From: a virus | Direction: 5' to 3' (one strand) | Virus record (IMG/VR): IMGVR_UViG_3300009537_000138 | Location: 1-27,759 of that record | Length of the DNA stretch: 27,759 nt | In this document: in pieces, positions 20,148 to 27,509 of the stretch | Position numbering within the stretch: the stretch's first letter is position 1 | Layout of the letters: every line of letters starts with the position of its first letter | Position numbers and translations under genes: made by a program | Notes under the pieces: model-generated | Seen by the model: the letters and a program-made list of their open reading frames with translations, nothing else | What the model was told of the DNA's origin: nothing | Database searches by the model: none

Positions 20148-20636
20148 ATGTTTAATCTATTTGGTCCGCTCAACCCGGCAGGCAGGAAGAAAAGGGATGT
20201 AATGTTGTGCTTGATTCTGCTGGCCTTATTTGTGGTGCCTGCTTTTGTAAATTCCGCAGGGGAGCCCGGGATACGCATTGCCTGGGATGAGACGACCACT
20301 GATTCGGACGGGTCACCCTGCACGGACCTGGCGGGATATAAGGTGCATTATAAGCAAGACACCCAGGGCGGACCTCCATATGCCGGGACCGGGCTGGACC
20401 AGGGAGACTCCCCTATTGCCGTTCCCTTGTCGTCGCTCTCCGATCCCGCAAACCCGGAGTTTTACCTTACGGGTGTTTCACCCGGAACGTACTATCTCGT
20501 CGTCACGGCCTATGATACGAGCGCCAACGAGAGCGGATTCAGTAACGAGGTTGGTGTACCAATTTTAAGCCTGGATGTAACGCCTCCGGCAAATCCCCAC
20601 AACGCAACGTCAGAAATTGTGGTGATTGTTCCGTAG
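20148..20636 (+). CDS. secreted fibronectin type III domain protein
   Basis: 162 aa; GAAGGAG precedes ATG 20148. Residues ~17-37 form a Sec-type signal core (VMLCLILLALFVVPAFVNSA) after a basic n-region (GRKKRD); an internal M19 start is also possible. Residues ~42-138 are an FN3 domain (IRIAWDETTTDSD..., GYKVHY, LTGVSPGTYYLVVTAYDTSA, SGFSNEV). FN3 domains bind surfaces or polysaccharides. It lies between the scaffold and a head decoration gene, so it could be a surface adhesin, decoration or a cargo gene. A signal peptide points to export from the lysogen or lysing cell rather than to ordinary virion assembly. It ends in a terminator-like hairpin. Confidence 0.8.
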   Translation: MFNLFGPLNPAGRKKRDVMLCLILLALFVVPAFVNSAGEPGIRIAWDETTTDSDGSPCTDLAGYKVHYKQDTQGGPPYAGTGLDQGDSPIAVPLSSLSDPANPEFYLTGVSPGTYYLVVTAYDTSANESGFSNEVGVPILSLDVTPPANPHNATSEIVVIVP

Positions 20637-20693: not shown

Positions 20694-21095
20694 ATGACAG
20701 CACTTGCACAAGACAGAAAAACCCCGACCCGGGAAGGAAAAATTATTTCCAACCCGGTGGCTGGTTCGACAATCTGCTATGGCGGCGGGATCGCCGTGGC
20801 CAATGCCACGGGTTATGCCGAGCCCGGCACGACCGCCACGGGCAAGACGGCGCTGGGCCGGTTCAATCAGCGGGTCGACAACTCGGCCGGCGCCGACGGG
20901 GCGCTGAACGTCGAGATCGAGCGGGGCGTATTCGAATTTGCAAATTCCGGGACCGATGCCGTGACCCAGGCCGAGGTGGGGAAAACCATCTACATCGAGG
21001 ATGATCAAACGGTTTGCAAGACCGCCACGGGGAAATCCGCTGCGGGCAAATGTGTCGGGATTGATTCCGACGGGGTGTGGGTGGAAATCGGGTAA
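20694..21095 (+). CDS. head decoration/cement-like protein
   Basis: 133 aa with AAAAGGAG upstream. Gly/Ala/Thr-rich beta protein (ICYGGGIAVANATGYAEPGT, GRFNQRVDNSAGADGALNVE) with a closing beta strand (KCVGIDSDGVWVEIG). The size, composition and position just before the major head protein fit DUF2190-like capsid decoration proteins. The sequence does not let me name the family firmly. Confidence 0.7.
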   Translation: MTALAQDRKTPTREGKIISNPVAGSTICYGGGIAVANATGYAEPGTTATGKTALGRFNQRVDNSAGADGALNVEIERGVFEFANSGTDAVTQAEVGKTIYIEDDQTVCKTATGKSAAGKCVGIDSDGVWVEIG

Positions 21096-22837: not shown

Positions 22838-23377
22838 ATGCCGAGCATTACGTATACGATCGACAAGATGGGCTTTAACGTCATAGAGAAGACGGCCCTC
22901 CGGACGCAGGACTTGCGGGTGCCGTTCAAGCGCATCGGCGGACTGATGGTCCGGTCGATCACCAGAAATTTCAAGGAAGGCGGCCGCCCGGTCAAATGGG
23001 ACCCGTCACACCGTGCCCGGGGCATGATTAAGGGAAAGCCAAAGGGGATCACACTGACGGAACACGGCGGGCTCAAGAATTCGATCAAACACGAGGCCCA
23101 TAGGCAATTTGTGACAATTGGGACAAACAAAAAATACGGTCCCGCTCACCAGTTTGGGTTTTCCGGCACAGTGCATCAATCAGTCAAAGAACATTGGCGG
23201 AAGGTCACCCAGGCCTTCGGTAGGAAATTAGATGAGCCCATGATGGTTAATGTGGAAGCCTTCGAACGTACGCTGAAGCTCAAGATTCCGAAGAGGCCGT
23301 TCCTTATAGTCCAGGATGAAGATATGACCCGCAGTGTGGGCATTCTTAAAAGGTTCATCGTGGAGGGCAAGGCCTGA
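22838..23377 (+). CDS. G: G-like virion morphogenesis/tail completion protein
   Basis: 179 aa. Pattern of Phage_tail_S/Mu G: LRVPFKRIGGLMVRSITRNF, WDPSHRARG, GLKNSIKHEAHRQFVTIGTN, KKYGPAHQFG, then IPKRPFLIVQDEDM. The family completes tails or joins head to tail. In Mu, G lies next to F; here it follows gp36, as in some other Mu-like phages. The start is just after a repeat with a weak ribosome site. ATG overlaps with the next gene at its end. Confidence 0.88.
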   Translation: MPSITYTIDKMGFNVIEKTALRTQDLRVPFKRIGGLMVRSITRNFKEGGRPVKWDPSHRARGMIKGKPKGITLTEHGGLKNSIKHEAHRQFVTIGTNKKYGPAHQFGFSGTVHQSVKEHWRKVTQAFGRKLDEPMMVNVEAFERTLKLKIPKRPFLIVQDEDMTRSVGILKRFIVEGKA

Positions 23378-23781
23378 TGTTGTCGATCATCAACCAGGTC
23401 AAGACAATACTCGATGGTCTCTCCGATCAGAAAGGCGTGCATCGAAGCATGGAGGGGATACTGCCGGACTCGGCGCTCTTTCCTTGCTATGCGGTCTCAC
23501 CGATGGCCGAGGATCGGGAGAACAAAGGCTTCCGGATACGGGTCTACGGATATGTAAAGATCCAGACGGCAGAGGGGCCGGTGGTCGGGACCACGGGGGT
23601 CTATACGTCGCCGGGGATCCCGGGCTTTATCGAGACGGCGGCCGATGCCCTGTCGGATGATTACTTTTCCGGCGTGGTTTCGGACGTCTCGGCAGGCGAA
23701 ATCTCATTTTATATCGAGCCGTTCGACAAGGAAACGTTGTTGGCGGCAGCGCAGTTTGATGTGGAGTATACAAAATGTTAG
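23377..23781 (+). CDS. gp37-like tail terminator protein
   Basis: 134 aa. Beta-alpha fold pattern: an N-terminal helix (IINQVKTILDGL), then PCYAVSPMAEDRENKGFRIR, VYGYVKIQ, then GTTGVYTSPG and a C-terminal FYIEPFD-KETLLAAAQFDVEY strand. It is compatible with gp37/DUF1834-like and tail-terminator proteins that sit at this spot in Mu-like phages. ATG overlaps the G stop. Confidence 0.7.
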   Translation: MLSIINQVKTILDGLSDQKGVHRSMEGILPDSALFPCYAVSPMAEDRENKGFRIRVYGYVKIQTAEGPVVGTTGVYTSPGIPGFIETAADALSDDYFSGVVSDVSAGEISFYIEPFDKETLLAAAQFDVEYTKC

Positions 23782-23791
23782 GAGCAAACTT

Positions 23792-24067
23792 ATGAAAAAG
23801 ATTCTTTTCTTTATCCTCGGATTTGTGGCGGCCTCCACACTTGCCATGGCAGCCGGACTGCACGACTGGAGCACGCAGGAGGCGACGGTCGGGATTATGG
23901 TTCCGCATACGGGCTACAATCCCTCCACGGTCATATCTTACAACGCGGCGGGTGGTGTGGTCTATGTCGATGAAACTTATGGAGGGGAAACCTGGCGGCA
24001 GGCACTAAACCCGAGCGATCTAACCGTCACATCGACAAAAACCATTGATCCGTGGAGTAAGCAGTGA
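23792..24067 (+). CDS. small secreted protein with signal peptide
   Basis: 91 aa from ATG 23792, with TAGGAG before it. MKKILFFILGFVAASTLAMA is a textbook Sec signal with cleavage after AMA. The mature ~70 residues are beta-rich with Trp and Tyr (GLHDWSTQEATVGIMVPHTG). No family recognised. Its TGA overlaps the ATG of the next secreted protein (TGATGA), so the two are translated together. Such a pair in a tail module is not part of the normal Mu plan. Confidence 0.7.
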   Translation: MKKILFFILGFVAASTLAMAAGLHDWSTQEATVGIMVPHTGYNPSTVISYNAAGGVVYVDETYGGETWRQALNPSDLTVTSTKTIDPWSKQ

Positions 24068-25983
24068 TGAAAAAATCATTCATTTATCTGTGTTTCTGTG
24101 CCCTTTTTATCAGCACCGGTCATTATGCTCAGGCTGTGAACATTTCAGAGCTGGTAAAGCAGAACGATATCATGGGCTGGTCTACGTCATGGAAAGCGCC
24201 ACTTAGCAGCAATCTCAGAACAGTATGTGCGCAAGGATGCGATTACACCGATCCACGTGAAGCCATTATCGAATTTCAAACACTGAACAGTAACACAGGT
24301 CCATCCAGCACGGCACGCAAAACGATTCTGATGTTGCCTGGTACTTATGATCTTTTTGATCCGGCAAATACTGCATGGGACAGTTTACCGCTTACTCAAG
24401 TATGTGGGGAAGTGGATGGATCTGGTACGGCAGGAGATTCATTTCTTAATTGGCGGCCAAATCTTAGCGAGGCTATAGGTGCAGGATATGTGGTCAAAAA
24501 TGGGTCATATTTTACATTAGATGGTTATATTTATCGAGTCACAGCAGATGCGACTACAGACAGCAACAGCAAAATGACTCTATCTATATATCCAAACCTA
24601 ATTACAACTGTTGATTCGTCTAATTCAATAGAATGTTCTGGAATTGAGACTATAATATCCAACATCCACCTAAAAGGTGTATCCCAAGAATCGGTAATTT
24701 TGAGATCAACAAAGAAAGTCGAAGATGTTACAAATAAATATCATGCATATGTGATATTTATTTCTGAAGATAGTTCAATAAAAACCAGCGCCGATGACAT
24801 TTTTGAAATATCAAATCTAACTCTTGCCTTTGAGTCAGGATCAACACCGGGAGAGAAATGGTCTCATATCTATATTGGGGATCGTGGGGTTATTGAGACG
24901 ATCAATGATGGTACGATATGGATACATGATATCAAAACGACCTCATCCGCCACATCACAAAAATACGGTGTAGCAATACATACACCCGATTTTTTATCGA
25001 ATGCAGATTCCGGTAATTTTGTGTTGACTGACTCTGAACTTGATGGAGGAATACTCATAACCAACGCGTTATCAATATATATCGCACGAAATAGAATGAC
25101 ACAGGTTGTAACTGACTGGGCTAATGCTAAAGGCATCGACATCTACTACGATGAAGACGAGATGACAGGCCGTGAAAGCGATCTGGGTGTGTTGGGGAAA
25201 AATATTATTAGAGATAATTATGTCTATACTACGGCAGCGTCAGGTGCAACAAAGATCGGAGCAGGCATAACATTTGAACAAGGAGGACAAGCCTTATCTA
25301 CAAGTAAATATATCACCTATATCAACAATTCTATATTTACGGATATGTCGGGAACAGCAGAGGCAACGGCAGACGGGTACGGTTTATATATCCCTGCGAC
25401 ACCTTTTGATCATCTATGGCTAATGGGTACATGGGATGGCCCGATACCAGAGGTCACTGGGTCAACAGGGGGCAGTGATGCTACAGTATTTGCCGGACTA
25501 CAATCATCAAGTTCCTTTATCGTCTCGGATGACCATGTTAATAGGCTTACAGTCAGATCAGTTGATGATTCGTTTTCTGCATTAGGTTTTGGTGAGGTTA
25601 ATTGGGACAGCTTGGTTACAAATCCTTCGGCAGCATCGTTAAATTTTCCCGGGCTGCCTGCTGATTCTACTATCACCGTGTGGTTAGAGGACGACAATAA
25701 CAATCCTCATTATTGGATGAATGGGAAAGTGATCACAATCACGTCTGTCGTATCGACTTTTGCGGATGCCGACTGTACGACTGATCCTGATATTCAGGAT
25801 GTGGATGGTACGTCTACGATGACGATTCCCCTAACTGGCGGTCATGCCCCTTTTGCTTTGGATTGGGCTTACCCGACAAATTGTTCATATACAGCGGGGG
25901 ATACTGTGGTTATTACTATTCAGGGGGAGACCATCTTCGGCCAAACTCTTGGGAATCATATAATCACGTTAACGTTGCAATAG
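24067..25983 (+). CDS. large secreted beta-helix-like protein, likely cargo gene
   Basis: 638 aa from ATG 24067 (GTG 24064 is in frame but overlaps the previous stop). Signal peptide KKSFIYLCFCALFISTGHYA with cleavage after AQA. Mature ~50-130 has GCDYTDPREAIIEF and TILMLPGTYDL, the pattern of an N-terminal cap and first turn of pectate lyase-like beta-helices. Many repeated beta strands follow (HLKGVSQESVILRS, ISNLTLAFESGS, GVIETINDGTIWIHDI, NFVLTDSELDGGI). The C-terminal ~100 residues resemble a beta-sandwich. No clear catalytic triad. Base composition is more AT-rich than the flanking genes, suggesting acquisition. It may act as an adhesin, depolymerase or exported lysogen factor. Confidence 0.7.
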   Translation: MKKSFIYLCFCALFISTGHYAQAVNISELVKQNDIMGWSTSWKAPLSSNLRTVCAQGCDYTDPREAIIEFQTLNSNTGPSSTARKTILMLPGTYDLFDPANTAWDSLPLTQVCGEVDGSGTAGDSFLNWRPNLSEAIGAGYVVKNGSYFTLDGYIYRVTADATTDSNSKMTLSIYPNLITTVDSSNSIECSGIETIISNIHLKGVSQESVILRSTKKVEDVTNKYHAYVIFISEDSSIKTSADDIFEISNLTLAFESGSTPGEKWSHIYIGDRGVIETINDGTIWIHDIKTTSSATSQKYGVAIHTPDFLSNADSGNFVLTDSELDGGILITNALSIYIARNRMTQVVTDWANAKGIDIYYDEDEMTGRESDLGVLGKNIIRDNYVYTTAASGATKIGAGITFEQGGQALSTSKYITYINNSIFTDMSGTAEATADGYGLYIPATPFDHLWLMGTWDGPIPEVTGSTGGSDATVFAGLQSSSSFIVSDDHVNRLTVRSVDDSFSALGFGEVNWDSLVTNPSAASLNFPGLPADSTITVWLEDDNNNPHYWMNGKVITITSVVSTFADADCTTDPDIQDVDGTSTMTIPLTGGHAPFALDWAYPTNCSYTAGDTVVITIQGETIFGQTLGNHIITLTLQ

Positions 25984-26145
25984 GTAGAGAGAGGAAAGGA
26001 TAATGAAAATGAAAAATTTTATGACACGGTTGGGAATTACACAACGCAGACCACCGCTGAAAGAGAATTGACGATTACGGTAGCGACTGCCGATCTGACA
26101 GCAGGTAAAATCATTGTCTATTATGAATATTTTATAAACGAATGA
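25984..26145 (+). pseudogene. in-frame coding-like segment beyond an amber stop
   Basis: After TAG (25981-25983) the same frame stays open for 53 codons to TGA (26143-26145). It reads KDNENEKFYDTVGNYTTQTT, then AERELTITVATADLTAGKII and VYYEYFINE, a plausible beta-rich phage protein C-terminus. An AGAGGAAAGG precedes ATG 26003, but that frame gives only 22 residues. Options are amber read-through, a recent nonsense mutation, or the remnant of the gene that previously occupied this place. Confidence 0.5.
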
Positions 26146-26177: not shown

Positions 26178-27509
26178 ATGTCACTCAATATCAAAGAATC
26201 AAAAGACGTAATCGTCGTATCAAAGCAAAAACAGGCTGATGCGGAGACGGTGGCGACGCTGGACAAGGCAATCCTGTTTGATGAGGGGTCGCAGCTCACG
26301 GTGAGCGACCAGCGAGAGCACAACCAGGGTGAAAAGACCGGGCACGTGGAACCGACCCGGATTGACATCAACGAAAAATCATTGTCGGGGAATCTGGCGA
26401 TTAAGAAGTCTCAGCCTGATGCTCTGGCCTGGGGCTTCGCCTTTGCCTTTGACAACCACAGCGAGGCGGCCACCCCGGGAGGGAACGGTTACGACCACAC
26501 GTCCGAACTGGTCGCTTATCCCAACGAACCGGCCTATTTTACCCTGGCACACCGCAAGGGGGAAATCGCAGATATGCAGCGGTTCATCGGGTGTGCAATG
26601 AATGGCCTGTCTCTGGCACTTTCCCGAGGTGAATATATGGGGCTTTCCATCGACCCACTGGGGATCGGCCTGGCTAACTCGCAGCGGGTGACCGAAATCA
26701 TCTCGGCGGTTGATACCGGATCCGGGACCGTGGACCTTGTCCTCTCCTATAAACTGTTAGAGATGGCCGCATCTCCGGACCTCGATCATGTCACCATCTG
26801 GGCCGATACAGAGGGGGCGGGTGAGACGGCCGGGCCGAGCGTGCTGTTGGCGGCTGTGAGTATGGTCAATGCAACGAAGACACTGACCGTTGCCACGACC
26901 GGAGTCGCCGGCACCTGGAATTTTTATGTGTCCTACATGGCGGATTCGTCCGAGGCAAACTTTACCTGGGCGGACGTATCGGCGATCACCACTATCGATG
27001 AATTCAAGATGAAGATGAAGGACATCAAGCTCACCATGTTCGGCCAATATGACGGCACGGCAAAGGACATTGTCGGCGGCCAGGCGGCGTCCTGTGAGGT
27101 GGATTCCGTCAATTACAGCTTTAATGGGAACCACGCCGTGCGGCAGTGTTTCCGGACCGGCGCCACGCCCCAGGACTATGCGGGGGGCATCGATACCGGG
27201 GATTATCTCCAGACGATCACTGTTGAACGGCGGGTAAAGGATTATCTGCTGGCCATCGCCAAGGACAAGAATCTCTATTTTTCGTTAAAGCTCTCGGCCG
27301 TGGGGCCGGAGTACGATGCGGTGAACAGTGAGAATTATCAGTTCGACCTGATCATCCCGAGGCTCGGTGTGCTGGAAAAGCCGATGCAGGTGAATGATAA
27401 AAAGTGGGTCGAGGCCGGGAACCTGGTTGTGCTGAAAGATAAAAATAATCCGACGTTCCCGACGTGTGTGGTTAAGGTTAGGAACCAGGTGTCTGGGTAT
27501 CTGGCGTAA
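26178..27509 (+). CDS. major tail (tube-like) protein
   Basis: 443 aa; TAAGGAGG precedes ATG 26178. Beta-rich with a long middle insertion (~165-270: SAVDTGSGTVDLVLSYKLLE, WADTEGAGETAGPS, TLTVATTGVAGTWNFYVSYM) that resembles an Ig-like domain. The C-terminal part (ERRVKDYLLAIAKDKNLYFS; YQFDLIIPRLGVLEKPMQVN) resembles phage tail tube proteins. It lacks the pattern of the Mu sheath gpL. With this size and position it resembles major tail proteins of Mu-like siphophages. Sheath genes further right cannot be excluded. Confidence 0.6.
   Translation: MSLNIKESKDVIVVSKQKQADAETVATLDKAILFDEGSQLTVSDQREHNQGEKTGHVEPTRIDINEKSLSGNLAIKKSQPDALAWGFAFAFDNHSEAATPGGNGYDHTSELVAYPNEPAYFTLAHRKGEIADMQRFIGCAMNGLSLALSRGEYMGLSIDPLGIGLANSQRVTEIISAVDTGSGTVDLVLSYKLLEMAASPDLDHVTIWADTEGAGETAGPSVLLAAVSMVNATKTLTVATTGVAGTWNFYVSYMADSSEANFTWADVSAITTIDEFKMKMKDIKLTMFGQYDGTAKDIVGGQAASCEVDSVNYSFNGNHAVRQCFRTGATPQDYAGGIDTGDYLQTITVERRVKDYLLAIAKDKNLYFSLKLSAVGPEYDAVNSENYQFDLIIPRLGVLEKPMQVNDKKWVEAGNLVVLKDKNNPTFPTCVVKVRNQVSGYLA

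Follow-up and report, generated by a model that had tools for sequence, protein, structure and literature searches.

In a Mu-like phage, two overlapping genes where the head genes meet the tail genes, S91 and BH, encode proteins with Sec-type signal peptides. They stand a somewhat better than even chance of being a cassette peculiar to this lineage, expressed late and supplying exported surface proteins or glycan binders; it would belong to a class of signal peptide (SP)-bearing accessory genes that recurs in Mu-like virion modules. The likeliest reading of the pair is as exported, surface-acting proteins. The window, the whole of a 27.8-kb virus record (IMG/VR IMGVR_UViG_3300009537_000138), is organised like a Mu-like phage genome, with transposition genes at its left end followed from left to right by terminase, portal, protease/scaffold, decoration protein (20694-21095), gpT, gp36, virion morphogenesis protein, a gene in the gp37 position, S91, BH and tail tube; genes to the left of the decoration protein were named from reading and a terminase search. 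The location inside the tail module that the original prediction gave the pair is confirmed upstream by the gpT major capsid protein (PF10124, 1.1e-108), gp36 (PF07030, 4.7e-33) and the virion morphogenesis protein (PF05069, 4.9e-17), and downstream by a Phage_tube_2-like tail tube protein (26178..27509, + strand), which matches PF18906 below the cut-off (E 0.0018) and is identified also by a tail-tube alignment (A1) and 65 loci, its homologues being numerous. The left neighbour (23377..23781, + strand), previously called gp37-like, is tail terminator-like by its position and by a weak tblastn match in L325 (E 0.002); it matches no Pfam model and has no significant PHROG. On the opposite strand, at the record's left end (516-1388), lies a gene for a protein with a hydrophobic N-terminus; at 39% GC its composition differs from that of the phage genes.

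S91 (23792..24067, + strand) is a 91-residue open reading frame preceded by the Shine-Dalgarno (SD) sequence AGGAG (23780..23784); by direct reading its signal peptide spans residues 1-20 (23792..23851) and finishes in an AxA-type end, leaving a mature part of ~71 residues that is free of cysteine. BH (24067..25983, + strand; 638 aa, beta-helix-like by sequence motifs) starts at ATG 24067, GTG 24064 also being possible, and its SD sequence, GGAG, lies within the 3' end of S91 (24054..24057). The BH signal peptide (residues 1-23, 24067..24135) ends in AQA, and six cysteines are found in the mature part. The overlap that had been described is present in the form TGATG (24065-24069), with one base common to the S91 stop codon TGA (24065-24067) and the BH start codon, and translation of BH may thus be coupled to that of S91. 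Both N-termini are, as had been claimed, typical Sec signals (MKKILFFILGFVAASTLAMA before AG in S91, MKKSFIYLCFCALFISTGHYAQA before VN in BH), and both are flagged by a home-made SP heuristic rather than by SignalP; this is the main technical weakness of all SP calls given here, the heuristic having a 1-2% background (10/1178 antisense ORFs in its stricter form and 7/316 in its looser form). Both proteins would be exported by Sec, with cleavage of their signal peptides. A spanin pair is rejected, since neither of the predicted cleavage sites has a Cys in its vicinity and there is no lysis context.

BH is compositionally foreign. Its GC content at third codon positions (GC3) is 0.36 overall and 0.31 in the core, against 0.68-0.73 in the neighbours; S91, at 0.61, deviates only mildly, so that the AT-richness originally ascribed to the pair holds for BH and not for S91, and joint arrival of the two genes need not hold. 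The pair is absent from six same-tube relatives. (The tail-tube alignment, of six sequences, served to fetch the 65 loci; 69 same-tube loci were analysed in total.) What precedes the tube in these relatives is the gp37-position gene, usually followed by one small gene of about 59-88 aa. Since the first relatives show only these two, the pair is an insertion or replacement belonging to the lineage of the window, placed between two genes that related phages have side by side or almost so, as befits a moron. A moron's own promoter and terminator were not found: a consensus scan of the cassette yielded none above chance and no plausible flanking terminator. Promoter-like sites occur at chance level, with none just before S91, which leaves expression during lysogeny, as originally envisaged, unsupported; S91-BH would be a moron-like insertion co-transcribed with the late genes.

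An inserted, partly foreign, moron-like cassette could also encode envelope-acting proteins of conversion or superinfection exclusion, masking or modifying the phage receptor in the lysogen or in late infection. Exported or membrane proteins with such functions have precedents among late genes (HK97 gp15, lambda Lom/Bor, Cor). We hold this to be quite improbable for S91-BH, whose own promoter and terminator signals do not rise above chance, which matches no family, and whose larger member, at 638 aa, is large in comparison with the known exclusion proteins.

Directly after the TAG stop codon of BH, and in frame with it, lies a 53-codon open frame (25984..26142, + strand; GC3 0.36) that the first reading had overlooked. 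It reads like the C-terminus of a structural protein rich in beta-strands, and no homologue was found for it; an SD-preceded ATG at 26003 sits in a different frame. Read-through of the BH stop codon into this frame is ruled out because TAG also terminates other genes of the window. The frame is probably the remnant of a further gene, and its place beside the pair would imply gene turnover at the site. The pair might then itself be a recent, idle acquisition without function, for which the absence of homologues, the adjoining probable remnant and the unequal GC3 of S91 and BH would speak. To this we give least credence: both frames are intact, SD-equipped and coupled, and similar cassettes recur in other phages.

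Searches for the two genes elsewhere were uniformly negative. No homologue of S91 or BH was found in IMG/VR (peptide patterns) or INPHARED, or, with phmmer, among the six-frame ORFs from 160 gpT loci; none of BH was found in GTDB contigs or in 14 + 395 + 198 (about 600) whole genomes. The pattern scans detect close relatives only, and distant homologues therefore stay possible. Six-frame searches of the fetched loci likewise gave no homologue of S91, BH or the FN3-like protein (20148..20636, + strand), which was recognised by eye between the protease and decoration genes as the third in the module with an SP-like N-terminus; the SP heuristic does not flag it. Thus, conservation of S91 and BH is not measurable, and co-occurrence, the check proposed in the original prediction, cannot be demonstrated: a homologous pair was found nowhere in the collections searched. 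The idea of a two-component system acting together with the FN3-like protein is not supported, nor are S91 and BH supported as an inherited two-protein system. By homology, then, the pair was found nowhere else in what was searched, the outcome that was to count against the proposal; by architecture it does have counterparts, in L317 and L319 (below).

The sequence of BH offers some indication of what it might do. Residues 138-192 (24478..24642, + strand), also missed at first reading, constitute a phage tail module (phrog_1302, 'distal tail protein', E 7.5e-9) with a weak match to the B domain of T5 pb9 (PF21430, E 0.037). Further on, residues 246-491 (24802..25539, + strand) hold a stretch of PbH1-like repeats (FEISNLTL, IYIGDRGV, FVLTDSEL, IYIARNRM, ITYINNSI and FIVSDDHV), six where shuffled sequences lead one to expect 1.6 (p about 0.003-0.004, for a motif picked post hoc). 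This test is insensitive: a relative with a Pfam Beta_helix match fell short of significance. BH, searched whole and in pieces, gave nothing significant in Pfam or in NCBIfam, and no PDB chain was matched at E below 0.5. Structure prediction of both proteins, suggested as a check at the outset, was weak for S91 (AlphaFold2 from the single sequence, pLDDT 59.7, with three strands at low confidence and a helix at residues 3-22 that is the signal peptide) and unusable for BH (no alignment, pLDDT 32). Thus, the beta-helix-like character originally attributed to BH is favored by a post hoc motif excess and confirmed by neither profile nor model; a beta-helix fold is plausible but unproven. No glycan-active residues were identified. 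Mature BH may be a disulfide-containing right-handed beta-helix with its tail-type module near the N-terminus, which would bind or act on cell-surface glycans around lysis, as a soluble tailspike would; S91 would be its small exported partner.

The recurrence of such genes is what places the pair in a class. In the 69 same-tube loci together with the window, 25 of 381 ORFs in the 5 kb before the tube are SP-positive, compared with two of 219 after it (Fisher p 8e-4) and seven of 316 antisense ORFs (p 0.006); the positives are spread over 20 phages. About five of the 25 resemble lysis proteins (L316, L321, L328, L341, L368). Defined as SP-bearing late-strand ORFs located between the capsid genes and a tube of the same type, the class includes S91-BH. 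An architectural counterpart, in L317, consists of three overlapping or abutting SP genes coding for proteins of 134, 315 (Laminin_G_3, 1.9e-10) and 663 aa, the last with a Beta_helix match (7.9e-5) that is slightly under the cut-off. L319 has three abutting SP genes just before gp36, specifying a fibre-like protein of 460 aa, one of 263 aa and one of 470 aa that is beta-helix-type by eye. Thus three phages show, within the head-tail genes, an arrangement of at least one SP protein and then a large SP protein of beta-helix type, with no sequence homology among them. Elsewhere, an SP protein of L314 has a tail-fibre module (phrog_38058, 3e-9) with matches to Pelagibacter phage baseplate and fibre proteins, that of L367 is FN3-like by eye, and decoration-protein homologues with SPs occur in the same-tube loci L115, L333 and L364. 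The mean Cys content of SP proteins is higher, but not significantly so (1.27% vs 0.83%, p 0.07). These findings support reading S91-BH as an accessory cassette of exported proteins, one case of a kind that recurs; the kind would comprise accessory proteins of fibre, lectin, FN3 and beta-helix type that are exported and encoded within Mu-like virion modules. No published description of export-tagged proteins among Mu-like virion genes was found.

Virions of tailed phages assemble in the cytoplasm, so that export signals on head-tail genes, the capsid gene included, are unexpected. Nevertheless, in 16 of the 192 distinct major capsid proteins (gpT) the N-terminus is extended by 37-59 residues that hold an SP-like segment and, in most, a short hydrophobic patch rich in Gly, which adjoins the capsid domain. 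For the nine whose starts were examined, an SD-like site is found at the upstream start and at no downstream start. The loci concerned (L002/L239, L006, L011, L012/L180, L087, L092, L107, L122, L154, L171, L173, L179, L188, L218, L250 and L289) include genomes of Zoogloea (for example sp. 1C4), Nitrospirota, Methyloversatilis, Cupriavidus and Rhodoferax (for example sp. OV413). In L179/L180, the SP codons (25) carry three synonymous and no non-synonymous differences, too few for a firm statement. SP-like N-termini are also seen on homologues of the window's decoration protein (L092:5413-6414, L104:9400-9963, L115:9016-9981, L333 and L364:238-1443), L092 having them on decoration and capsid protein both, and on a protease/scaffold (Mu I-like) protein in a Desulfobulbaceae genome (L084:8376-9458). 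A small SP-bearing family with several common cysteines (L018:10950-11396, L024:2504-2941, L026:10978-11388, L038:10981-11397, L039:1982-2392) is encoded just downstream of gpT, in L024 after a gp35-like gene, and is likely an exported decoration-type protein. Literature searches, partial in coverage, found no description of signal peptides on Mu-like capsid or decoration proteins.

An SP-like N-terminus on capsid, decoration and protease proteins means that a signal peptide alone is no proof of a secreted effector, and it is on this ground that the main rival stands: S91 and BH would be tail or neck parts of the virion, their hydrophobic N-termini tethering assembly to the membrane or being removed. 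The position of the pair among tail genes, the tail module of BH, the gpT extensions for which no better start codon presents itself and the SPs of the five decoration proteins are all in keeping with this. We nonetheless regard it as unlikely, with an appreciable residual chance of being right. The pair is found in no same-tube relative and is therefore dispensable for the tail; BH is foreign in composition; the signal peptides finish in good cleavage sites; and S91 and BH have no counterpart of the Gly-rich hydrophobic patch of the SP-bearing capsid proteins. A wider and improbable proposition is that many Mu-like phages route products of the virion module (decoration, fibre, lectin and beta-helix proteins, and the major capsid protein as well) to the inner membrane or across it by Sec, with disulfide-bonded surface proteins maturing in the periplasm and then coating virions or debris at lysis, or with the membrane as the site of head assembly; S91-BH would then be one of the cargoes. 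If the proteins of the recurrent class are true Sec substrates, the Mu-like phages of environmental bacteria have surface or glycan-binding proteins that have so far gone unrecognised as a set; if the exported proteins join virions, the route by which tailed phages are decorated needs revising.

Taken as an exported accessory cassette, S91-BH shares features with several known systems. Two-component spanins and other coupled exported phage pairs also have overlapping genes with an export signal on each; S91-BH differs from spanins in having no lipobox, no lysis-gene neighbours and one partner of 638 aa. Phage tailspikes and diffusible depolymerases resemble BH in their beta-helix type (probable in BH) and tail-type module. 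However, tailspikes are cytoplasmic virion proteins without a signal peptide, whereas BH has one of Sec type, is encoded before the tube instead of at the tail tip and matches no catalytic family. With the morons and regions of genomic plasticity of Mu-like phages (PMC4378225), S91-BH has in common that extra genes lie amid conserved neighbours, are absent in relatives and (BH) deviate in composition; it is set apart by the undetected promoter and terminator, by exported products, one of them of 638 aa, and by its site of insertion just before the tail tube. The closest functional precedent for BH, by analogy, is WceF of Pantoea stewartii, which is exported, has the fold of a tailspike and hydrolyses exopolysaccharide (PMC7949094). 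WceF comes from a bacterial EPS operon, bears a Tat signal and has had its trimer structure solved (PMC7949094), whereas BH is phage-borne, Sec-type and dissimilar in sequence to any PDB chain. Both are large and exported, both are right-handed beta-helices (probably so in the case of BH), and BH, like WceF, would be expected to meet surface glycans.
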